Positions 1 to 41,962 are shown, counted from the first letter of the stretch. The stretch is 41,962 nt of DNA from Candidatus Saccharimonadota bacterium (GCA_017514665.1 JAFWIX010000004.1:1-41962), one strand, 5' to 3'. Translations and numbers: made by a program. Notes: generated by a model not told the origin, from the letters alone.

Positions 1-1365
1 CAAACTGATGCTCCATCTACCGCTTCTACCACCTCTATTACCTTTGCTGGTAAAGTCAACACTACCAAACCTTCTGGTACTTACTCTACTTCTGTTACCT
101 TTACTGCTATTACTAATGCTCCACCAGATTATACCGCTAGATTAGATACTGGCCAAACCGTTAACGCTAAACTAAAGTCTCTAGCTGCTGGAACTACTCA
201 GACCTATACCGCGCAAGACAATCTTGTCAAATCCATTGACGTCCACCTAGAAACATCTGCCCCTACCGGATTTATTCCATCTGAAGCCAACACCATTTCT
301 TCCTCTGAGTCTAAAAACCCAATCTACATCATCTTTGATAATACTAATGACGCTGGTATCATGCACTTCTATACTGAAGGAAATCAAATCTTCTTACCTT
401 CCGATTCATCTTATACGTTCTATCAATTCCGCTCCCTCTCCGACCTCTCTGACCTTTCTGATTGGGATACTTCCAGTGTGACAAATATGACTAATATGTT
501 CTCTTCTGCCGGCTACGACGCCACCACCTTCACCCTAGACCTTTCCGGCTGGAATACTTCTAACGTGACGGATATGGGTAGTATGTTCTATTCTGCCGGC
601 GACTCCGCCACCACTTGGTCCATCGGCGACCTCTCTTCTTGGAACACTTCTAACGTGACGGATATGGGTCAAATGTTCTCTTCTGCCGGCTACTCCGCCA
701 CCACCTGGTCTGTCGGTGACCTCTCTGATTGGAGTACTTCTAACGTAACGGATATGGGCAATATGTTCTATGATGCCGGCCACTCCGCCACCACCTGGTC
801 TGTCGGTGACCTCTCTGATTGGAGTACTTCTAACGTAACGGATATGGGCAATATGTTCTTTGCCGCCGGCTACTCCGCCACCACCTGGTCTGTCGGTGAC
901 CTCTCCGGTTGGAACACTTCTAATGTGACGAGTATGGACAATATGTTCAATAGTGCCGGCTACTCCGCCACCACCTTCACTCTAGACCTCTCTTCTTGGA
1001 ACACTTCTAGCGTGACGAATATGTACCGCATGTTCCGATACGCCGGCCGCTCCGCCACCACCTGGTCTGTCGGCGACCTCTCCAGTTGGAATACTTCCAA
1101 TGTGACGAATATGGGTGATATGTTCCGTTATGCCGGTGTCCCCGTCACCACCTTCACTCTAGACCTCTCTTCTTGGAATACTTCTAACGTGACAAATATG
1201 AATCGGATGTTCGAATCTGCCGGCCGCTCCGCCACCACCTGGTCTGTAACTATTCCTCCAACCAATGGGAATAATATTAGTAATACTACCAGTAATATGT
1301 ATGGCCAAACCACATCAGTATATGGTGAACCACCTAGCGGCAAATCTTTCACTCTAGCTCAATAA
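1..1365 (+). CDS. Secreted BspA/DUF285-repeat surface protein, 5' end outside window
   Basis: The frame is open from the first base and ends at TAA 1363-1365 (454 visible residues), so the signal peptide and most of the N-terminal module lie upstream. Residues ~1-40 match the end of the N-terminal module of the next two genes (pattern TFxGKxxxxKPSGTYSTSVTFTA). From about residue 155, nine 29-30-residue units follow with the core 'TSNVTxMxxMF', the signature of BspA-like DUF285 repeats, which form beta-solenoid/LRR-like surfaces in adhesins. No LPXTG-type motif or C-terminal membrane helix is visible; the protein ends in a Ser/Thr/Asn-rich tail. Codons in the repeat part are richer in C-ending codons than in the N-terminal part, which suggests a mosaic origin. 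Adhesion is inferred from the family. Confidence 0.85.
   Translation, partial: QTDAPSTASTTSITFAGKVNTTKPSGTYSTSVTFTAITNAPPDYTARLDTGQTVNAKLKSLAAGTTQTYTAQDNLVKSIDVHLETSAPTGFIPSEANTISSSESKNPIYIIFDNTNDAGIMHFYTEGNQIFLPSDSSYTFYQFRSLSDLSDLSDWDTSSVTNMTNMFSSAGYDATTFTLDLSGWNTSNVTDMGSMFYSAGDSATTWSIGDLSSWNTSNVTDMGQMFSSAGYSATTWSVGDLSDWSTSNVTDMGNMFYDAGHSATTWSVGDLSDWSTSNVTDMGNMFFAAGYSATTWSVGDLSGWNTSNVTSMDNMFNSAGYSATTFTLDLSSWNTSSVTNMYRMFRYAGRSATTWSVGDLSSWNTSNVTNMGDMFRYAGVPVTTFTLDLSSWNTSNVTNMNRMFESAGRSATTWSVTIPPTNGNNISNTTSNMYGQTTSVYGEPPSGKSFTLAQ
462..1247 (+). repeat. Tandem DUF285 coding repeats, ~87-90 bp units
   Basis: Nine consecutive units within the surface-protein gene each encode a 'W-T/S-TS-(N/S)VT-x-M-x-x-MF-x-x-AG' block. 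The units around 711-800 and 801-890 are nearly identical at the DNA level with a 90-bp period, so slippage or unequal recombination could change copy number. Units alternate between a TLDL and an SVGDL linker, which gives the 29- versus 30-residue lengths. Confidence 0.85.
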
Positions 1366-1421
1366 AGAGACAGATTTAATATATTTTTCTTTTTGTGTTT
1401 TTTATCATTTTAGTACAGGTG

Positions 1422-1465
1422 GCTACACGGTGGTTACAATGTACCACCGATGCGACATTTAATGA
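1422..1465. repeat. Solitary right arm of the intergenic inverted-repeat element
   Basis: This stretch, 55 bp after the stop of the first surface gene, contains GGTGGCTAC and ACCACCGATGCGACA. It closely matches the right arm of the complete element at 3732-3766. No matching left arm is visible upstream, where the coding region lies. It looks like the remnant of another copy of the element. Confidence 0.5.
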
Positions 1466-1501
1466 TAATAATAAAAAGAATTTGGAACGGATCTTAAAAA
1501 A

Positions 1502-1787
1502 TAGTGACTCATCGCTGTCCCATTGCATACATTAACTCATTTCAAATCTAAAAACTCACCATAAAACTCACAAATTCATAAGCATAAACACAAAATCACA
1601 AAAAAGCCCCATTTTACAGAGGTTAAAGTGATTGGAAAAAACTCACATACCCTCCAATAAATGGGTCTTGTTGCCAAGGTAGTGCATATGGGGGTGTCAT
1701 CAATTTGCGTTTCAAAAAATACACTTTTATACCAAAATAAACATAAACACCATAAACTGTACGAAACGTACCAGCGACGGGACATCT
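1502..1787. repeat. Intergenic repeat element, copy 1, with imperfect terminal inverted repeats
   Basis: The element lies between the first and second surface genes. The left arm (1502-1530, core CTCATCGCTGTCCC) is inverted imperfectly at 1769-1787 (core CAGCGACGGGAC). The left 190 bp are almost identical to copy 3 (5645-5830). They include the block AAAAAAGCCCCATTTTACA and several AAAACTCAC motifs. The right third has diverged. No ORF of note lies inside. It could be a MITE-like element, a structured RNA or a recombination site; the sequence alone does not decide. Confidence 0.7.
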
Positions 1788-1935
1788 ATTGTTTTCTCCT
1801 ATATAAGACATACTTAAAAGATACACTTAAATATATATAACAATATGTTACATATCTCAATGTTTATTAAAGATCAAAAAAATATATAACACTTTATTAC
1901 ATAACTATTATTTTCTAAAAAAGCTTAATAAGTAT

Positions 1936-1943
1936 GATATAAT
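1936..1943 (+). promoter_or_regulatory. Extended -10 promoter of the first FISUMP gene
   Basis: TGATATAAT ends at 1943, and the ATG follows after six nucleotides, so transcription should begin at or next to the start codon. No good -35 is visible 17 bp upstream. Confidence 0.6.
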
Positions 1944-1949
1944 AGTTAT

Positions 1950-3371
1950 ATGAAAAAGGTCATCACTATTTCTACTTCTGCATTGGCTATATTGTCGATG
2001 TTTTTTATTTCTCTAAGTACCTTTAATGTAGGTAGTTCTAACTTAGCCTATGCAGACTCCAACGCCAAAGCCGAACTCAACATTGATTCTATAATTAACA
2101 TTTCAGCACCAAACACAGTTACTATCAATTGTACTCCAGGCTCTACCGCAGCAACTGCTACTTTATGTACTGGCAATGCTACAGTTAGTGTTACTACTAA
2201 TAATATTACTGGCTTTACCTTACAAATGAATGCCGCCAATGGTTCTCCTACCGCTCTTACTAATACTGGTACTTCACCTAGCGCTACTCTACCCACTTTA
2301 TCTCAATCCTATACAGCTGCTAATTTCCCCACTAACTATTGGGGCTATACAGGAGGTTTAGATAAATCAGGAGAAACCGGTGGTTATGACTGTGCATCAA
2401 ACTATTGTCCTATCCTAGCCTACGAATCTACTCCATCAAATTATGCCCCTAATCACGTAATAAAAGTCACAGACGCTCCCGCTACTACATCAAATACCAC
2501 CCTTACCTTTGGCGCCAAGATTGATGTAAGTAAGCCTTCTGGGACTTATTCAACATCAGTTACTTTCACGGCTGTAACTAATTATGTTCCACCTACAAAA
2601 CTAGCTAACGGTGTTTCTATGCAAGAAGTCACAAGCTCAGTCTGTGCTAATTCCGATACTGATGTAATCTATACCGTAGTAGATAGTAGAGACGGCAAAG
2701 AATATACCGCAGCCAAACTCCAAGATGGCAATTGTTGGATGACCCAAAATCTTGCCCTAGGTGGCTCTACTGCTATGAATCTCACCCAAGCTGACTCTAA
2801 TGTAGGACCTTCTGGCTTCACTCTTCCTGCTTCTAGTGTGACTGAAGAAGATTGGGGCGAAGCCCTTCCCGATGAACCCAACTTCTTCGACTACGCTGGT
2901 AACTACCCCTCTCAGCAATCTACTACCAAGTATGGTAACTTCTACAACTGGCCTGCCGCTACTGCTGGCTCTGGCACCAGTGCCACCATTGATGGCGAAA
3001 AAGCCCCATACTCTATCTGCCCCAAGAACTGGCGCCTCCCCAGTTACGATGACTCTACTTATGAACCTGAGGCCTATACTATGCTTAATAACTACATTAC
3101 CACTGGTACCTGGGACGATTATAACCTCGGCTGGACCGGAGTTACTACCACTGATTTTACTAACGCTCCTGTTTCTCTCGTGTTCTCTGGTACCTTCATT
3201 GGCGATTTATTTGATCAAGGCGATTTAGGCTTCTGGTGGGATTCTGCCGGTGAGAGCAGCGACAAGGCAGCCGACCTGCAGATATACAGCGGTGGACACG
3301 TATACCCGTACACATCCGGTGGCCGTAAGGACGTCGGTATGTCAATTAGGTGTATGATATCCGGTTCGTAG
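1950..3371 (+). CDS. Secreted FISUMP-domain surface protein
   Basis: 473 residues. A signal peptide (about 1-35, cleavage after AYA in 'LAYADS') is followed by the shared N-terminal module (about 36-215), which contains 'YWGYTGGLDKS' and 'CASNYCP' and is nearly identical in the next gene. The C-terminal half is a FISUMP domain (Fibrobacter succinogenes major paralogous domain). It shows 'KLQDGNCWMTQNL', 'YGNFYNWPAA', 'CPKNWRLPS' and ends with 'SIRCMISGS', the C-type-lectin-like ending of that family. No sortase motif or C-terminal helix is present, so how it is held on the surface is unclear. The start is placed 6 nt after a TATAAT with no Shine-Dalgarno. The last ~140 bp use GC-rich codons unlike the front of the gene. 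A role in surface binding is inferred from the domain type. Confidence 0.85.
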   Translation: MKKVITISTSALAILSMFFISLSTFNVGSSNLAYADSNAKAELNIDSIINISAPNTVTINCTPGSTAATATLCTGNATVSVTTNNITGFTLQMNAANGSPTALTNTGTSPSATLPTLSQSYTAANFPTNYWGYTGGLDKSGETGGYDCASNYCPILAYESTPSNYAPNHVIKVTDAPATTSNTTLTFGAKIDVSKPSGTYSTSVTFTAVTNYVPPTKLANGVSMQEVTSSVCANSDTDVIYTVVDSRDGKEYTAAKLQDGNCWMTQNLALGGSTAMNLTQADSNVGPSGFTLPASSVTEEDWGEALPDEPNFFDYAGNYPSQQSTTKYGNFYNWPAATAGSGTSATIDGEKAPYSICPKNWRLPSYDDSTYEPEAYTMLNNYITTGTWDDYNLGWTGVTTTDFTNAPVSLVFSGTFIGDLFDQGDLGFWWDSAGESSDKAADLQIYSGGHVYPYTSGGRKDVGMSIRCMISGS

Positions 3372-3418
3372 TTAACACTTCCACCACCCGGCAACCTCAT
3401 TCCAGATCAATATTTCGC

Positions 3419-3480
3419 GACATTTTTCGTACACCAAAAAATACATTTTCCGAACGCGAACAAAAGTATCATCAAAAAAT
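3419..3480. repeat. 3'-flank repeat, copy a
   Basis: The block starting GACATTTTTCGTACACC and containing CATTTTCCGAACGC lies downstream of the first FISUMP gene. It is repeated with few changes at 5582-5645 downstream of the second one, in both cases directly before the inverted-repeat element. The two FISUMP cassettes therefore share their 3' flank as well as their N-terminal module, as expected from cassette duplication. Confidence 0.75.
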
Positions 3481-3766
3481 AGTGTCTCGTCGGTGTCCCA
3501 TTCCGTACATTTGCTTAAAAAACTCACTAGAAAATTAATAAATAGGGGGACTCTTGCTTTGATTTTCTAGAACCATCAAAAAAGCCCCATTTTACAGGGG
3601 TGAAACCGATTTAAAAAACTCACTGACACTCCAGCAGATGGAAATATTTGCCAAGATAGTGCATATGGGAGTGTCACAATAATCCGTTGCACTTTTTAGT
3701 TCATTTTTTCACTGTTATTAAAATACACAATAGGTGGCTACAACATACCACCGACGCGACACCTAA
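3481..3766. repeat. Intergenic repeat element, copy 2
   Basis: The left arm at 3481 (GTGTCTCGTCGGTG) is inverted at 3751-3763 (CACCGACGCGACAC) with one mismatch. The inner blocks AAAAAAGCCCCATTTTACA, AAAAAACTCAC and GTGCATATGGGAGTGTCAC are shared with copies 1 and 3. An inner 9-bp inverted repeat, TGACACTCC...GGAGTGTCA, spans about 3624-3676. The arms here read GTCGGTG where copy 3 reads ATCGCTG on both sides, so the arms change together. Confidence 0.7.
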
Positions 3767-3853
3767 CTTTTCATAAATTACAACGGATTTTATAACACGT
3801 CACCTCTGTAAATCATTTAACAGATCTTCTACTAATAATAAACTGGAAAAAAG

Positions 3854-3882
3854 TTGTCATATAAACAAAAGCATGATACAAT
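3854..3882 (+). promoter_or_regulatory. Promoter of the second FISUMP gene
   Basis: -35 TTGTCA at 3854-3859, a 17-bp spacer, and -10 TACAAT at 3877-3882 with an upstream TG. The leader of about 20 nt contains AAGG before the ATG at 3910, so unlike its paralogue this gene appears to have a short 5' UTR. Confidence 0.7.
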
Positions 3883-3909
3883 GAAAACATAATCAGTATA
3901 AGGCCAAAT

Positions 3910-5457
3910 ATGAATAAAACTAACAAGCTCAAAAATCTTATAGGGAATGGCAACAACTTTTTGATTATCCCAATTTCAGCTTTCACCGTCTTAGCGGTGT
4001 TTTTTATTGCTTTAAGTAGCTTAAGTGTCGGTAATTCTAGCTCGGTCTACGCCGATTCTTCCGCCTCTTCAGACACCGAAGTAAACCTAAACATTGATCC
4101 AGTCATTAATATCACTGCCCCACAAATCTCTACTATCAGCTGTGTATCTTTAAATACTCTATGTACTACTAACACTACTGTTACTACAGAAACCAATAAC
4201 CGCACCGGTTACACCTTACAGCTAAATGCTACTTCTGGTTATTCTAATAGTCTTACTAATGCTGCTACTAATGAAACTATTCCTACTCTAAGCCAATCTT
4301 ATGCTTCTGGATCCTTTCCTGTAAACTATTGGGGCTATACAGGAGGCTTAGATAAATCAAGTGAAACTGGAGGATATAACTGTGCATCAAACTACTGCCC
4401 AGTTCTAGCTTATCAATCTACTGAGTCTAACTATGCCCCAAATCATGCTATAAAAGCTACGAATGCTCCTTCCAGTGATACCACTACTATTACTTTTGGC
4501 GCTAAGGCTGATACCACTAAATCTTCTGGTACTTACTCTACATCAGTTACCTTTACGGCAGTAACTAACTTCGTACCAAATCCAGATGCTCCTGTTAACT
4601 GCCAGACTAAAGTACCTAGCGTTAATTACATGCAAGAAATAAACTCTACTAATGAATCTTCAATTCTCGCTGCTATGGTAGAAGATCAACCATACTATAT
4701 TAAAGACTTTCGTGATAAAGAAACCTACTGCATCAGCAAACTCAAAGACGGCAATCTCTGGATGTTAGACAACTTAAGATTAGACCTAGTTGCCTCTCAG
4801 AACAACATCACTTCATCAAACACTAACGCTTCAGATACTTACCTAAACTACCTTAAAGGCGTAAACACTGGTACTACTTCAGACCAATATCCCACTGCTG
4901 GAGTAAGCTATTGGACTAGTAGTTATAGTTACTCTGCTCCTCTTATTGCTATTAAAAACGCTAATAACGACAACTGGAATCCAGACACCGTGGCTTCCGT
5001 TACTTATGGTAATGGTAGTGGCAAGATTGGCATCTACTATAACTACTGCGCCGCCTCTGCTGGTTCATACTGTTGGGGTAATGGTACAAGCTACACTGGC
5101 TCTCCCTCTTCAGACCCTAAATCTGGCACTCTCTACGACATAGACGCCGATATCTGTCCGGCTGGTTGGCATATGCCTACTACTACTTCTGGTAGTGGTG
5201 AATATTACTACCTATACAACACCGCTTACTCCGCCGACCAAGCCAACTTCAGAAACGCCCTCTCTACGCCTCTCTCTGGCTACTTCGGCAATGGCTCGGC
5301 GAACGATCTGGGTTCGGGCGGCTACTTCTGGTCTTCTACTTGGAACAGTACGTACCGCATGAGAATCCTCTACGTCAATGCCAGCAGTGTGCTTCCCTCC
5401 AGTAACGACGGCCGCAACTACGGCAGCTCGTTGAGGTGTATACGGAGCGGGTCGTAG
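3910..5457 (+). CDS. Secreted FISUMP-domain surface protein, paralogue
   Basis: 515 residues. The signal peptide and cleavage site (about residue 49, 'SVYADS') sit after a longer basic N-terminus. Residues about 52-225 are the shared module, with 'SYASGSFPVNYWGYTGGLD' and 'CASNYCPVLAYQS' nearly identical to the preceding gene. Residues 226-515 form a FISUMP domain: 'CISKLKDGNLWMLDNLRL', 'YNYCAAS', 'CPAGWHMPT', 'YFWSSTWNS', ending 'SSLRCIRSGS'. The N-terminal part is AT-rich in codon choice, while from about 5220 the gene uses mostly G/C-ending codons. No sortase signal is seen. Together with its neighbour and the DUF285 gene it forms a modular family in which the front is conserved and the presented end varies. 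Confidence 0.85.
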   Translation: MNKTNKLKNLIGNGNNFLIIPISAFTVLAVFFIALSSLSVGNSSSVYADSSASSDTEVNLNIDPVINITAPQISTISCVSLNTLCTTNTTVTTETNNRTGYTLQLNATSGYSNSLTNAATNETIPTLSQSYASGSFPVNYWGYTGGLDKSSETGGYNCASNYCPVLAYQSTESNYAPNHAIKATNAPSSDTTTITFGAKADTTKSSGTYSTSVTFTAVTNFVPNPDAPVNCQTKVPSVNYMQEINSTNESSILAAMVEDQPYYIKDFRDKETYCISKLKDGNLWMLDNLRLDLVASQNNITSSNTNASDTYLNYLKGVNTGTTSDQYPTAGVSYWTSSYSYSAPLIAIKNANNDNWNPDTVASVTYGNGSGKIGIYYNYCAASAGSYCWGNGTSYTGSPSSDPKSGTLYDIDADICPAGWHMPTTTSGSGEYYYLYNTAYSADQANFRNALSTPLSGYFGNGSANDLGSGGYFWSSTWNSTYRMRILYVNASSVLPSSNDGRNYGSSLRCIRSGS

Positions 5458-5581
5458 CGATTTTAGTTAGCACCCTTGCCATTTAGCAACCTCATAACTC
5501 CTTAATAAACGGATCGTAGCGAGATCACTCTTTTGCCCTAACCATCGATATATTTCCTCACAATCTGCAGAACCATTATTT

Positions 5582-5645
5582 GACATTTTTCGTACACCAA
5601 AAAATGCATTTTCCGAACGCAAACAAAAAATGTCATCAAAAAAAT
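5582..5645. repeat. 3'-flank repeat, copy b
   Basis: Second copy of the block described at 3419-3480, following the second FISUMP gene after an insertion-like 120-bp stretch. In that stretch CGG(A/G)TCGTAGCGA occurs twice, at 5448-5461 (over the stop codon) and 5511-5524. Confidence 0.7.
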
Positions 5646-5919
5646 AGTGTCTCATCGCTGTCCCATTGCATACATTAACTCATTTCAGATCTAAAAACTC
5701 ACCATAAAACTCACAAATTCACAAGCACAAACACAAAATCACAAAAAAGCCCCATTTTACAGGGGTGAAAGTGATTGGAAAAAACTCACATACCCTCCAA
5801 TAAATGGGTCTTGCCGCCAAACTACTGCATATAGGAGTGTCACAAAAAGCCGTTGTAAAAATGAATTCTTTTTTAGCTCTTTTCCTGAAGTGGTCACAAT
5901 GGGACAGCGATGAGACACT
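5646..5919. repeat. Intergenic repeat element, copy 3, perfect 23-bp terminal inverted repeats
   Basis: The left arm 5646-5668 (core GTGTCTCATCGCTGTCCC) is repeated exactly in inverted orientation at 5897-5919 (core GGGACAGCGATGAGACAC). The interior matches copy 1 over most of the left two thirds. No target-site duplication is obvious at the borders. The right arm lies 84 bp before the transposase start, and an ATG at 5910 falls inside the arm. The perfect arms make this the best preserved copy. Confidence 0.8.
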
Positions 5920-5990
5920 TTGCCGAAAAACTTAATTTTTCCTGCAACGAAAAAAACGGCTTTTTAAAGTATAGCATTATGTTAATATCA

Positions 5991-5996
5991 TATAAT
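5991..5996 (+). promoter_or_regulatory. -10 element of the transposase gene
   Basis: TATAAT is followed by six nucleotides and the ATG at 6003. No Shine-Dalgarno is present, so a leaderless transcript is likely. There is no upstream TG here, unlike most promoters in the window. Confidence 0.5.
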
Positions 5997-6002
5997 ATTA
6001 GG

Positions 6003-7157
6003 ATGAAAAGAAAAATAAACTCCAACCAAAAATACAAAATAATAAAACTATATTATGAAGGTGAATCTGCTGAGGCATTATGTCGTAATTATCATATTGC
6101 CCATAGCACCCTTTATAAATGGATTGCAGATCATCCAAAAGAAAGTATGATCCGGGCTAGACTAAAAAAAGAAAAGCCAGTTAATGTCCCTTATTTAATG
6201 AGTCATGCAAAAAAATTAGAAGCAGAACTAGAATTCTTGCATCGTACTGTCACTAATAAAATACCCTTAAGGGAACGCATGAAGATTATAGACGACGAAT
6301 ATGGCAAAGAAAGCCTTAGAGTACAATGTGATGCCCTTGGCGTAAACCGGGCAACCTACCTAAATCGTAAATATCGCAATAAAAATGAAGATGCCTGGTT
6401 TATAAAACGTGAAGCTAGATATACTGAACTCATTCGTAAAATCTACGAAGAGAGTGGCCATGTTTACGGAGCAAGAAAGATTACCGCGATCATGCAAAAG
6501 AAAGGTTACCCCACTTCTGAGAAGTATGTCCGTAATCTTATGGCGCATGCCGGTTTAATTAGTGCAAGAAGTACTGCTCATAAAGCACATTTAGTAGTCG
6601 CGAGAAGGATGCGTGAAGCAGCTCATTCTAGCCAGACCTTTAAACCAATCGCCCCTAATCAGGTCTGGGTTAGTGATGTTACAGCTGTTTGTGTACGCGG
6701 CCATTACTATTTTGTCTGTGCGTATATAGACCTGTTTTCTAGAAAAGTAGTAGGGTATAGAGTAGGCAAAAGCAATAGCGTTCAATTAGTTAAAAGAGCT
6801 TTCGTCAAGGCTTTCAACGATAGACATCCAGATGGCCAGCTTATTATTCATACGGATAACGCATGCATTTATACTTCATACAGCTTTAACAAGACCTTAA
6901 GAGAATATAATGTAGAGCACTCTTTTTCTCGTCCAGGAACCCCTCACGATAATGCCGTAGCAGAGACTTTCTTTAATACTCTAAAACGCGAATCAATACT
7001 CCGCACAGATTACCCGCGTTCATATCGTGAGCTAAATAGCCGAGTGGATACATTTATAGAGTGGTATAATTCTAAAAGACTACACGAACACTTACGATAT
7101 ACAACGCCAGATGCCTTCGAAAAGTCTTATAAAGATAAATCTGCTGCCTCAGCTTAA
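6003..7157 (+). CDS. IS3-family transposase, fused OrfAB in one frame
   Basis: 384 residues from the ATG at 6003. An N-terminal helix-turn-helix (about 5-45, 'YEGESAEALCRNYHIAHSTLYKW') resembles OrfA. The C-terminal part is an rve integrase core with D225 ('VWVSDVTAV'), D285 ('IIHTDNACI') and E321 ('NAVAETFFNTLKRE'), giving the DD(35)E spacing of IS3 elements. IS3 members usually make OrfAB by -1 frameshifting; here the whole protein is one uninterrupted frame, as in a minority of the family. An in-frame ATG at 5910 is rejected as the start because it lies inside the inverted repeat arm. I could not find convincing terminal inverted repeats of the IS itself, so it may be a decayed or domesticated copy, although the reading frame is intact. 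Confidence 0.85.
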   Translation: MKRKINSNQKYKIIKLYYEGESAEALCRNYHIAHSTLYKWIADHPKESMIRARLKKEKPVNVPYLMSHAKKLEAELEFLHRTVTNKIPLRERMKIIDDEYGKESLRVQCDALGVNRATYLNRKYRNKNEDAWFIKREARYTELIRKIYEESGHVYGARKITAIMQKKGYPTSEKYVRNLMAHAGLISARSTAHKAHLVVARRMREAAHSSQTFKPIAPNQVWVSDVTAVCVRGHYYFVCAYIDLFSRKVVGYRVGKSNSVQLVKRAFVKAFNDRHPDGQLIIHTDNACIYTSYSFNKTLREYNVEHSFSRPGTPHDNAVAETFFNTLKRESILRTDYPRSYRELNSRVDTFIEWYNSKRLHEHLRYTTPDAFEKSYKDKSAASA

Positions 7158-7348
7158 TGGATAAGATGTCATTCATAAGTATTGGACATTTGTCCGATAT
7201 AACAGGGAAAAACCTCAGAACAAGGGGGTTCAGATTCCAACTTTTTTCATTTTTTTAACCCCATTTTTTCACTTTTTTATTCCACTGTCCAATCAACTAC
7301 CCCTGGAGACGTGGACATGGGGGTTCGGATCGCATACAGCGCATCAGT
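7158..7348. other. Intergenic stretch after the transposase
   Basis: No gene seen. It contains the palindrome GGACATTTGTCC (around 7183), an 8-bp inverted pair ATTGGACA...TGTCCAAT about 100 bp apart, and a direct repeat GGGGGTTC(A/G)GAT. These may be remnants of the right end of the insertion sequence, but no partner was found on the left side. Confidence 0.35.
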
Positions 7349-7433
7349 TGGTGCCCGGAGTGGGACTTGAACCCACACGAGTTTCCTCATTCGATTTTAA
7401 GTCGAACGCGTATACCAATTCCGCCATCCGGGC
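7349..7433 (-). tRNA. tRNA-Leu (anticodon TAA)
   Basis: The minus strand gives an 85-nt class II tRNA with a GCCCGGA/TCCGGGC acceptor stem, A discriminator, encoded CCA, a short variable arm and anticodon loop CTTAAAA. It bounds the surface-protein/IS island on the right. Confidence 0.95.
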
Positions 7434-7486
7434 TTACATCCATCTTATCATAAGTTTTCGATATTTCCAATATAGTAAGAAACAAT

Positions 7487-7494
7487 GATATAAT
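7487..7494 (+). promoter_or_regulatory. Extended -10 promoter of the phosphatase gene
   Basis: TGATATAAT ends at 7494; a second TATAAT lies at 7501-7506. An ATG at 7496 lies between them and is upstream of any likely transcription start, so the ATG at 7520 is favoured. Confidence 0.5.
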
Positions 7495-7519
7495 AATGCA
7501 TATAATTAAATTACATCGC

Positions 7520-8269
7520 ATGAAAATATTAAGTTCAAACACCTTGCAGGGCATCGGCAAATACAACAACGACATTTTGGGCCATTCAGAAAATTTTTGT
7601 TATGTGATGGATGGTGCGTCTGCGCTGTTTGCAGACAACCTCTTTTTTGAAACATCCGATTTATATGAGTACATGCAACTATTGAAAAAACACATCAAAG
7701 ATGGTGACACCAGCATCGATATATTCAGGAACGGCATCACAGAAAGCAACAAATTTCTTCCTGACATCAATAAATATCCAGAATACGAGTTGCCGACCTT
7801 CACAATCGCGGGCGTCAAAGAAAACACAGATAATTATGAACTGTATTTGTTGTGTGATTGTTTGATTTCCATACTATACCAAGATGGCAGAGTCGAAAAT
7901 CTTGAAGATTTGAGGTTTAACGAAATCAATACCAAGATTGAAGGAGAAATTGCCAAAATTGACGAATTAGATTTAGTCGAAGCAGAAAAAATAATCCGCA
8001 AAAGACCAATTTGGCAAAGATATCGCAAATTCGCCAATGCGCCTGACGGTTATCCAGTAGGTTCTACCAATCCTGAGAGTGTTCGCGTTGGCATTGTAAA
8101 AACTATTAATAAAGCTGACGTTGACAAAATTTTAATTTGCACAGACGGGTTGTTTAGTTCAATTGGTCTGCCAAATGACGCTTCGTATTTTGACGAACAT
8201 GACCTAGAAGATAAAATTGCTAAAAATCACAATCACGACGACCTTACGTATATATTAATCAAAGCATAA
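7520..8269 (+). CDS. PP2C-family serine/threonine phosphatase-like protein
   Basis: 249 residues from ATG 7520. The pattern of PP2C phosphatases is visible: 'GIGKYNNDI' (about 11-19), 'VMDGAS' (29-34), 'ICTDGL' near residue 214 and 'DDLTYI' at the C-terminus. These supply the metal-binding aspartates. The middle of the protein is divergent and includes a Lys/Glu-rich helix. There is no membrane segment or extra domain, so a cytosolic protein that dephosphorylates Ser/Thr residues is likely. It stands alone between tRNA-Leu and tRNA-Cys, and no kinase partner is next to it. A distant member of the PP2C-like group without activity cannot be excluded. Confidence 0.65.
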   Translation: MKILSSNTLQGIGKYNNDILGHSENFCYVMDGASALFADNLFFETSDLYEYMQLLKKHIKDGDTSIDIFRNGITESNKFLPDINKYPEYELPTFTIAGVKENTDNYELYLLCDCLISILYQDGRVENLEDLRFNEINTKIEGEIAKIDELDLVEAEKIIRKRPIWQRYRKFANAPDGYPVGSTNPESVRVGIVKTINKADVDKILICTDGLFSSIGLPNDASYFDEHDLEDKIAKNHNHDDLTYILIKA

Positions 8270-8274
8270 AAAAA

Positions 8275-8288
8275 TGGAGGCACCTACC
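8275..8288 (-). repeat. Partial copy of the tRNA-Cys 3' end
   Basis: TGGAGGCACCTACC matches the 3' end of tRNA-Cys (8321-8334, TGGAGGTACCTACC) including the CCA complement, with one mismatch. On the minus strand it lies 33 nt downstream of the tRNA. It could be an attachment-site or duplication remnant, or chance given the 14-nt length. Confidence 0.35.
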
Positions 8289-8320
8289 ACTCCTTGGGAC
8301 GCGGAAGGGGACCGACTTTA

Positions 8321-8394
8321 TGGAGGTACCTACCGGAATTGAACCGGTGTACGCGGTTTTGCAGACCGCTGCGTAACCACTCCGCCAAGGTACC
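8321..8394 (-). tRNA. tRNA-Cys (anticodon GCA)
   Basis: The minus strand gives a 74-nt tRNA with a GGTACCT/AGGTACC acceptor, U discriminator (a Cys identity base), encoded CCA and anticodon loop CTGCAAA. Confidence 0.95.
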
Positions 8395-8415
8395 ATAGAC
8401 TCATTTTATCATATT

Positions 8416-9336
8416 TTAAGCGGTTTGCATCAAAATTATCCCGATTACCGCCAGCACTACTGCTATCAAATGCACCGTTACGGTCTTGCGGTCGAGTTTT
8501 TCGCGCCCAAAACTTGGCCAGATAATTGTAAATGCTAGACCAAACATAAATACCGATATCGGCATCAAAGTCTTGGTAATTGCTGAGGACATCGCCATCG
8601 CCGGCGCAATAATCAAAGCTGAATAATTTACAAACTCATGCCCCAACCAAATCACAAAGTTCGTTGCGATTGCCAGCCAAGCTTTGAAGCCACCACGATA
8701 CATGACTATTTTGAAACGTCTGCGCCAAGCTTTGAATTTTACTGCCAACGCCACATCCACTAACCCGCGACCAATCATCACGTAAAACATCATGGTAATA
8801 AAATCAATTGTAGGCGCTAATTCTACAATGAGTGTATTTGCTAAAGTCCCCAAAGTGATTTTTATCAGCATCAAACCAATCATTTTTATTTTGTTGCCCT
8901 GGCTGCGCTTGCGTGACGACAAAACTATCAAAGCCGGTGCCGCCATCAGCACCGCGATTGCCACTAAATGTAAGAATGATACTTCGCTATGCAGTAACCA
9001 CCAACCCCACATCAAGTAGAAGATTGGCGATAATTGCTCTACAATCGCCACATTGGTGGATTCGTCTTTGGAAAGTGCAATATAATAGGGAATCAAACTT
9101 ACACCAAAAAGCATACCAGCTGCCACTAACCACAGTGCATTACCAACCGATATCGCTTGCAAGCCAAAGATTATTGCCACAATAATAGCAGCGATCAAAT
9201 AGCCAGGACCAGAGAAGATTTTGCGTGACTGCGGCAACCTGTCCTTAAAGAATACATCAGCAATATAGTTGTCAAAGAATACCCCTAATGCCATCAATAC
9301 CGCTGCAGCAATCGCCAATACCACCCAAAGTTCCAT
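8416..9336 (-). CDS. EamA/DMT-superfamily transporter-like membrane protein
   Basis: 306 residues with about ten hydrophobic segments arranged as two five-helix halves. It begins 'MELWVVLAIAAAVLMALGVF' and ends in a further helix, which is typical of EamA (drug/metabolite transporter) proteins. The substrate cannot be read from sequence. The start ATG is directly adjacent to the stop of the upstream lysozyme-like gene, with GAGGAG seven nucleotides before it inside that gene, so the two genes are translationally coupled in one transcript. Confidence 0.7.
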   Translation of the reverse strand: MELWVVLAIAAAVLMALGVFFDNYIADVFFKDRLPQSRKIFSGPGYLIAAIIVAIIFGLQAISVGNALWLVAAGMLFGVSLIPYYIALSKDESTNVAIVEQLSPIFYLMWGWWLLHSEVSFLHLVAIAVLMAAPALIVLSSRKRSQGNKIKMIGLMLIKITLGTLANTLIVELAPTIDFITMMFYVMIGRGLVDVALAVKFKAWRRRFKIVMYRGGFKAWLAIATNFVIWLGHEFVNYSALIIAPAMAMSSAITKTLMPISVFMFGLAFTIIWPSFGREKLDRKTVTVHLIAVVLAVIGIILMQTA

Positions 9337-37527: not shown

Positions 37528-37553
37528 AAAAAAGGTTGTGTTTTTTGAATTTG

Positions 37554-37562
37554 TGTTATAAT
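37554..37562 (+). promoter_or_regulatory. Extended -10 promoter of the Ig-like surface protein gene
   Basis: TGTTATAAT with the ATG at 37569 six nucleotides later; no Shine-Dalgarno. Confidence 0.6.
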
Positions 37563-37568
37563 AGATAT

Positions 37569-38849
37569 ATGCGTAAGGGTTATGATAAAGAACAAAAACG
37601 CAATGGTAAGACAAAATCTTATATTTTTGGCTCGCTAACTTTAGCTGGACTATTAGCTGTAATGGGCCTAGTTAGCCCAAACGCTCATGCTGTAGATTGT
37701 ACGGACAGCGGCTCAAGTAGTGCGTCTTGTGACACCATTGTTAATTTAATTTTACCAAGTTTTATTTCTATTTCTGGTTCGCCCAGTGTTTATTTTGATG
37801 GCGGCAACGATTTGACCCCGGGCGTATTTTATACTAGCGGCGCCACAGTTTATGTCACTACCAATAGCGCAAATGGTTACACGTTGTCCATGCAGATGTC
37901 TGAAAACCAGATTTCTGGCTCTACTAATACTCTTTATTATAACTCTAGCGAATACATTCCCTCCATTACTTCCGTGCAAAAGCAATCTGATATAGAAAGC
38001 GATCCCACCACTGGTGGTTGGGGTTTTGCGCTTGATGCTACCAATTATCGTCCATTACCGACCGTCAATGGTAGCACTTACAATACTTTAAATCTCAAAC
38101 GCACTCACGGTGTAGCTAACAATGATGCCACCACTCTTACCTTTGGCGTTTTACCACCGACCGGCATTCAAAATGGTCTTTATCAAAATATTATCACTGT
38201 GACCGCTACTGCCAATGATGCCATCACCCTTACCGGCCTCAATATCAGCGGCACACCCACCAAGACGAGTTATCAAGATGGTGATCGTTTCGACCCAGAT
38301 GGTCTCACGGTCTATGCTGTTTATAGTGATGGCGTGCAGGTACTATTGACAGATACCCAATACGTAATTACTAACGGTAACCCTTTGGCCGGCGGACAAA
38401 CATCCGTAAAAATTCGCTATACCGATAATGGTAGCACCGTTGATAGCACAGTTAACGGTATCACGGTTAGCGGCGGATCGCCAAAGGGTTCTTCTGGCGA
38501 CAATGGCGGCGGCAGCGGCACCAAAGGGGTTACTGCTGCTCCATCTAACACTAGTGCTCGTGGTGTATCCAGCGGTTCTGGCGTTGCCAGTACTAATACT
38601 GCAGATGACACCGATACTTCTAGTGATTCTGGTTCCGGCAAGGCCGATCCGCAAGGCGTCTCCGATTCCTATGGTTCTAGCAGCTCCACTTCTAGAATCG
38701 GTGAAGATAATACGAGTCTAGCCATTGTGCTCGGCATCGCTACTGCTACTGCTGCTACCGGTATCGTTCTTCTCGCCGCTGCTAAGCGCCGTCGCGAAGA
38801 GGAAGAAGAGGAAGAAGACGGTAGCGGTGATATCACCCAAATGGGATAA
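37569..38849 (+). CDS. Surface protein: shared N-terminal module, Ig-like domain, C-terminal membrane anchor
   Basis: 426 residues from ATG 37569. A signal peptide (about 15-40, 'NAHAVDC') is followed by a module of ~180 residues that is a distant relative of the module in the 1950 and 3910 genes: '(V/T)TTNSANGYTLSMQM', 'GWGFALD', 'ATTLTFGVLPP', 'YQNIITVTAT'. Next comes a bacterial Ig-like (Big_3-type) domain, with 'YQDGDRFDPDGLTVYAVYSDG', split here as 'FDPDGLTVYAVYSDG'. A Ser/Gly/Asp-rich stalk leads to a membrane helix ('LAIVLGIATATAATGIVLLA') and a tail with seven consecutive Glu. There is no PNTG or LPXTG motif, so it is probably held by the helix. It follows dnaE on the same strand but has its own promoter. 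Confidence 0.8.
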   Translation: MRKGYDKEQKRNGKTKSYIFGSLTLAGLLAVMGLVSPNAHAVDCTDSGSSSASCDTIVNLILPSFISISGSPSVYFDGGNDLTPGVFYTSGATVYVTTNSANGYTLSMQMSENQISGSTNTLYYNSSEYIPSITSVQKQSDIESDPTTGGWGFALDATNYRPLPTVNGSTYNTLNLKRTHGVANNDATTLTFGVLPPTGIQNGLYQNIITVTATANDAITLTGLNISGTPTKTSYQDGDRFDPDGLTVYAVYSDGVQVLLTDTQYVITNGNPLAGGQTSVKIRYTDNGSTVDSTVNGITVSGGSPKGSSGDNGGGSGTKGVTAAPSNTSARGVSSGSGVASTNTADDTDTSSDSGSGKADPQGVSDSYGSSSSTSRIGEDNTSLAIVLGIATATAATGIVLLAAAKRRREEEEEEEDGSGDITQMG

Positions 38850-41766: not shown

Positions 41767-41962
41767 ATGATAAAAGTATCTAACTTTAATTTAGCACTAA
41801 AAGAAAAGGCTATTTTTGGTATATTTAGTGTTTTTAGTCTAACGGCAATTCTCTTGAGTTTCTTTATTTTTCCATCCTTTGTTTCAGAATCTTCCTATGC
41901 CGATCCCGTCCCTCCCGCTGCAGACCCTTCTATTTCTATCGTTCCAGCTGGTGGTATCAACC
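41767..41962 (+). CDS. Start of another secreted surface protein, 3' end outside window
   Basis: 65 codons are visible. A basic start and membrane-type signal ('FGIFSVFSLTAILLSFFIF') lead to 'SESSYADPVPP', the same S-x-x-YAD cleavage neighbourhood as in the 1950 and 3910 proteins. After the cleavage site the sequence is Pro/Ala/Ser-rich ('PSISIVPAGGIN'). It is probably a further member of the modular surface family, but the rest is not visible. Confidence 0.65.
   Translation, partial: MIKVSNFNLALKEKAIFGIFSVFSLTAILLSFFIFPSFVSESSYADPVPPAADPSISIVPAGGIN

Follow-up and report, generated by a model that had tools for sequence, protein, structure and literature searches.

The three adjacent genes at the start of the DNA analysed here (41,962 nt from a Candidatus Saccharimonadota bacterium, GCA_017514665.1, JAFWIX010000004.1:1-41962; the window) appear to belong to a family of dispersed secreted surface paralogs, each built of a signal peptide, a conserved N-terminal module of ~200 residues, predicted to be a beta-sandwich (N-module), and a swappable display domain. 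The variation of this family is best explained (probability about 0.78) by exchange of display domains combined with rewriting of the FISUMP tails by a diversity-generating retroelement (DGR), the repertoire having been inherited in a lineage that probably lacks the machine. At one level, duplication, insertion and homologous recombination would shift display domains behind the N-module; at the other, a template repeat would be reverse-transcribed with adenine errors and pasted into several dispersed FISUMP tails. For the latter, the signature is read in the source genome and the complete machine in species of the same genus, and the writing step is deduced from these sisters. The machine was not found in the assembly, so the repertoire was probably inherited, once DGR-written and now changed mainly by duplication and recombination. 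Among the variable partners that the display domains would bind, the host bacterium or competing surfaces are the most plausible.

Genes of the window and extent of the family

The source genome is a Saccharibacteria MAG (670,673 bp, 10 contigs, 95.65% complete), the window being its contig C10; its closest relatives on public record are MAGs of Candidatus Saccharibacteria, for the most part from the gut of ruminants. The following features were located in the window:

1-1365 (+): gene 1; 5' end cut by contig start, last 42 N-module residues inside the window
1-126 (+): gene 1, end of N-module (last 42 residues); profile match 2.7e-16
127-1365 (+): gene 1 C-part, solenoid of 9 DUF285/PARCEL units (about 30 residues each)
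1496-1790 (+): 3' flanking element, copy 1; 94% to copy 3
1950-3371 (+): gene 2; N-module, then FISUMP
1950-2591 (+): gene 2 N-module with signal peptide
2592-3371 (+): gene 2 C-part, FISUMP class B; TIGR02145 8.5e-14, 52.6 bits (cut-off 41.65)
about 3190-3371 (+): gene 2 hypervariable tail; class-B tail, against the template of the relative G005
3474-3775 (+): 3' flanking element, copy 2; 70% to copy 3; long-range terminal stem, fold z -3.4
3910-5457 (+): gene 3; N-module, then FISUMP
3910-4578 (+): gene 3 N-module with signal peptide, predicted beta-sandwich; model pLDDT 91.5, fold matches
4579-5457 (+): gene 3 C-part, FISUMP class A; TIGR02145 1.1e-10, 42.5 bits (cut-off 41.65)
5264-5457 (+): gene 3, putative DGR-type variable region; template-adenine bias against C8:2-538
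5639-5925 (+): 3' flanking element, copy 3; perfect 23-nt terminal inverted repeat, fold z -6.3
5910-7157 (+): IS3-family transposase; NF033516 272.7 bits (cut-off 160)
37536-38849 (+): secreted protein resembling the N-module (profile E<1e-5); Ser-rich stalk, membrane segment and acidic tail by sequence
41767-41962 (+): start of a family gene with a second N-module type; cut by contig end, runs into contig C4

A common front followed by DUF285 in gene 1 and by FISUMP in genes 2 and 3, as the sequence-only reading had proposed, was borne out by profile scores over the cut-offs; YWGYTGGLDKS and CASNYCP are present in genes 2 and 3, and gene 1 retains the module end (TDAP...SGTYSTSVTFTA.TN). Scores of the gene 1 C-part were above the curated cut-offs: PF03382 – 195 bits (cut-off 25); TIGR02167 – 143 bits (cut-off 30); its 9 DUF285 units compare with 5-8 in paralogs. 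The IS3 transposase was the only copy in the genome stretches examined (tblastn). The product of 37536-38849 is a possible membrane-anchored family member, judged from its sequence; the gene lies between those of DNA polymerase III alpha and leuS, and a similar protein is encoded in the relative G082 (L171:15674-16627).

The claimed shift in codon choice at the module border is real and stepwise, with a further rise in the tails: GC3 was 0.21-0.30 in N-modules and 0.41-0.54 in C-parts, and over the final ~185 nt it reached 0.58 in gene 2 and 0.76 in gene 3.

The "tandem array" proved to be three truly adjacent genes that are not isolated. The gene 3 N-module as query gave 24 places genome-wide (C8:18835 and C10:4 among them being two halves of one gene) and the family profile gave 26; about 22-24 N-module genes are dispersed over the 0.67-Mb MAG, and the family takes up roughly 35 kb, about 5% of the genome. 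What follows the module differs: FISUMP of class A (FWSSTW...) or of class B (WWSST...), a double FISUMP, DUF285, or a further domain. Some members (L055:8269-10899, L167:6299-8077) end in another domain with a variable-looking terminus, FWLLSPY...GVRPAISL. Contigs C2, C8, C10 (the window) and C4 are linked by end overlaps of 121, 133 and 141 nt; that of C8 with the window start (133 nt) has one mismatch, and C8 holds the rest of gene 1. The join of C4 to C1 rests on a 14-nt end overlap only. Several contig ends lie in family genes, and the 141-nt sequence at the junction of the window with C4 is present at both ends of C4.

The N-module, predicted alone with 30 homologs (pLDDT 91.5), gave as best match TLP-1a (TasA-like; Z 8.1, rmsd 4.4, 153 aligned, borderline), followed by Csu/Fim pilins (Z about 7; Csu Z 7.3). 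No Pfam family was matched at E 0.1, and so no TasA/pilin family at sequence level; the resemblance of the model to TasA-like and pilin folds is weak and suggestive. Many of the N-module matches in other genera of the order stand alone, in short frames of about 200-230 residues. The module would thus serve for assembly or anchoring, in the manner of TasA or pilins, and the fusions would display extra domains, in view of the predicted fold, the stand-alone frames and the stalked protein of 37536-38849.

Exchange of display domains and the 3' flanking element

Paralog pairs were compared by identity of the N-module and of the following 450 nt. N-modules of C7:229625 (FISUMP) and C8:11090 (DUF285) are 91% identical over 579 nt, after which identity falls to background at the border; C5:46268 and C4:15348 compared with C1:97453 gave 97% and 96% for the N-module and background for the C-part. 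Across mosaic pairs with unrelated C-parts, N-module identity was 86-97%. Reverse mosaics were also found: C8:11090 and C7:218078 – 73% (N), 89% (C); C2:47855 and C7:101868 – 73% (N), 85% (C); C4:15348 and C7:229625 – 64% (N), 80% (C). Sliding identity broke at the module border in most pairs. The suggested swapping of domains behind a conserved front is therefore upheld in both directions, and domain exchange is shown, at sequence level, as an evolutionary process; homologous recombination is its probable route.

The closest relative compared, G005 (a goat-jejunum MAG; another species, not a strain), departs from the same genes in the same order with uniform divergence. Flanking proteins are mostly 78-97% identical; an N-module gene of the source genome between C5:39687-41033 and C5:42553-45450 is replaced in G005 by 238 bp of gene-free sequence; a pair of N-module genes (C2:8470-11238) is absent from G005, though the flanks are conserved; and upstream of the C2:6553 homolog G005 has a class-B FISUMP end and the source genome class A (one flank only, at a G005 contig start).

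Repeated 3' flanks and intergenic elements, also reported from the sequence, were confirmed: 1496-1718 and 5639-5861 are 91% identical over 223 nt, a more diverged third copy lies at 3474, and the 23-nt arm occurs 4 times (0 expected by chance). The element (~290 nt) has six copies in the genome, three of them beyond the window (C8:816, C8:12851, C7:231219), each directly 3' of a family gene, in one orientation, behind differing C-parts. Compared with the 5639 copy (CATCGCTG), the 3474 copy (CGTCGGTG) seems to have changed in both arms together. An Rfam scan of 1-9000 gave only tRNAs above threshold, the element matching no known RNA family. The IS3 transposase (5910-7157) adjoins the 23-nt arm, with no recognisable second end. 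The element was considered as an IS3 mobile element and this was rejected: no second IS end, and six copies all in one orientation behind family genes. A common 3' flank on genes with unlike bodies fits the cassette picture without being proof of recombination there. The proposal of recombination through the intergenic repeats found no backing: all six copies lie 3' of family genes, but no recombinant junction was seen there.

Variation of the FISUMP tails and the DGR machine

In four class-A paralogs, differences at codon positions 1/2/3 numbered 63/42/122 upstream and 94/71/15 in the tail. The mean pairwise difference of class-A tails was 0.52 at adenine sites of the G082 template and 0.14 elsewhere (p about 1e-14); the same test on the 240 nt just upstream, used as control, gave 0.22 and 0.18 (p=0.21, no bias). 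An independent template, that of G075, gave the same adenine bias. The tails of gene 3 and C8:2-538 differ at 30/60 template-adenine sites and at 4/132 others (Fisher 2e-14; adenine sites defined by the sister species' template); upstream of the tail these genes are 87% identical (13% diverged). Such a pattern would be the trace of copying from a common template with adenine errors. By this adenine bias the last ~190 nt of class-A FISUMP genes (gene 3: 5264-5457) carry a DGR signature. The variable region of gene 3 lies in the FISUMP domain (profile match), while the matches listed in the fold search covered the N-module. DGR-type hypermutation of the FISUMP tail accounts for the GC-richest stretch of gene 3 and would be the main source of rapid variation, one missed by the sequence-only reading. 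Class-B tails (gene 2 included) are hypervariable with a weak adenine bias (0.63 against 0.40-0.44); they were set aside as clean DGR evidence, being too diverged for a clear bias. A hairpin with a GC-rich stretch, the candidate homing signal of a DGR, shows on visual inspection downstream of the variable regions in relatives and is not obvious in the source genome.

Three genomes of the same genus, G005, G075 and G082, contain intact cassettes in which a target and an accessory gene are found together with a reverse transcriptase and a template. Mismatches between template and variable region fell at template adenines as follows: G075 – 95% (of 21); G082 – 36/37; G005 – 96% of 27 in one cassette and 95% of 21 in a second. 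One of the two G005 cassettes acts on a class-B FISUMP tail, and some cassette targets bear the same N-module (G082 target, E 3e-9).

No reverse transcriptase was found in the source genome by the Pfam profile (PF00078, which matches 55 same-genus relatives) or by a genus-specific profile (used without positive control in that genome); nor was a template repeat found there by two patterns, one of which matches 23/90 genus genomes. The source genome would accordingly hold DGR-written targets and not a complete DGR, and be either a DGR relic or an assembly from which the cassette is missing; absence of the machine is likely and not proven, because the MAG is 95.65% complete and in 10 contigs. 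A cassette of G005 is located close to a gene that shares 92% identity with C1:94000-97311; in the source genome ~140 bp, with no cassette in it, separates that gene from the N-module gene C1:97453 behind it. This comparison favours cassette loss here or gain there; an assembly gap is possible.

A 7.4-kb contig of another, otherwise unrelated MAG (G053 contig C26; L172) is in places 98-100% identical to the source genome at protein level. It is probably mis-binned and may span much of the gap between C7 and C6. G053 was discarded as a near strain, the rest of it having no DNA-level match beyond C26.

Competing explanations and known systems

That an active DGR is hidden in an assembly gap or an unbinned element and acts in trans on dispersed targets, gene 3 included, is a less likely alternative. 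The gene 3 pair differs at 4/132 non-adenine sites in the tail as against 13% upstream, so that the tail would have been rewritten well after the duplication; moreover, variable and template repeats tend to break assemblies. On the other side, C2-C8-C10-C4-C1 are joined by overlaps of 121-141 nt (C4-C1, 14 nt), contig C26 of G053 appears to cover much of the C7-C6 gap with no reverse transcriptase in it, and the missing sequence would need to include two or more template types at once. An origin of the tail variation in ordinary diversifying selection with gene conversion, no retroelement having ever been involved, would agree with a source genome in which no reverse transcriptase or template was found; it is nevertheless very improbable. 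The differences fall at adenines of other species' templates and third codon positions are homogenised, while gene conversion should make every site uniform and selection should not leave silent sites untouched; besides, a full machine acts on the same domain in sister species.

Programmed surface switching, with the intergenic repeats or the conserved front as recombination sites, was the earlier interpretation and is now held to be improbable. The mosaic genes, the six element copies found only behind family genes in one orientation and the single IS3 transposase beside one copy speak for it; against this, no site-specific recombinase or expression-site arrangement was seen, and the dispersed genes all have a start and a signal peptide of their own. 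A switching system at population level finds no support in the sequence, the array being accompanied by a lone IS3 transposase and no recombinase. Assembly or binning chimeras, by which unrelated domains would have been fused, are scarcely credible: several contig ends do lie in family genes, but most members are intact open frames within long contigs (C5, 142 kb; C7, 272 kb), and fusions of the N-module with DUF285 or FISUMP recur in the independent MAGs G005, G053 and G082. Swapped display domains with inherited, probably DGR-written FISUMP tails are the preferred explanation.

An extension of this explanation is put forward tentatively: a two-tier episymbiont repertoire, in which a filament-forming N-module would polymerise display subunits, recombination would shuffle their display domains and a DGR, lost or hidden in the source genome and reaching its many scattered targets in trans, would write the hypervariable tips. 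One 0.7-Mb cell would then present dozens of variable binders for host recognition. A streamlined genome would devote about 5% to one family with shuffled, retroelement-written exposed parts. The family is a concrete list of candidate host-binding proteins; effects of a DGR may be read from its targets even in a genome that lacks the machine; and sister species that differ in carrying the cassette can be compared in a natural way.

Three components are already known: DGRs of Patescibacteria (PMC8144416), remote targets (PMC4891356) and PARCEL repeats (PMC2996958). The DGR of Treponema denticola diversifies several dispersed targets from one template (seven in ATCC 35405), several of them predicted lipoproteins, and some strains have targets without reverse transcriptase and template (PMC4891356). 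Remote multiple targets and targets without the machine are common to both systems; unlike those of T. denticola, the Saccharibacteria targets share a family N-module that also bears DUF285, and their host has a reduced genome. In clade 2 of the Patescibacteria DGRs, which is cell-encoded, the variable region lies in a C-type-lectin-like domain at the C-terminus, preceded by N-terminal domains of various kinds, and the survey states that remote targets would escape it (PMC8144416); in contrast to that survey, targets in the present family are mostly remote. PARCEL/DUF285 repeats vary in unit number in surface proteins of minimal-genome bacteria (PMC2996958); the same repeat family is here one of several exchangeable C-parts behind a common N-module. 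TasA-like and chaperone-usher pilins (TLP-1, 9ikj; TasA, 8aur; Csu, 7zl4) gave the best alignments of the predicted beta-sandwich, from which the N-module differs in having no Pfam family match and Z near 8. Open-access literature, covered in part, held only passing mentions of DGRs in Saccharibacteria and, within the same partial coverage, no close counterpart of the combined family. What appears to be new is the combination: a fixed front, exchangeable display folds and DGR-written tails, with the machine absent here and present in sister species.
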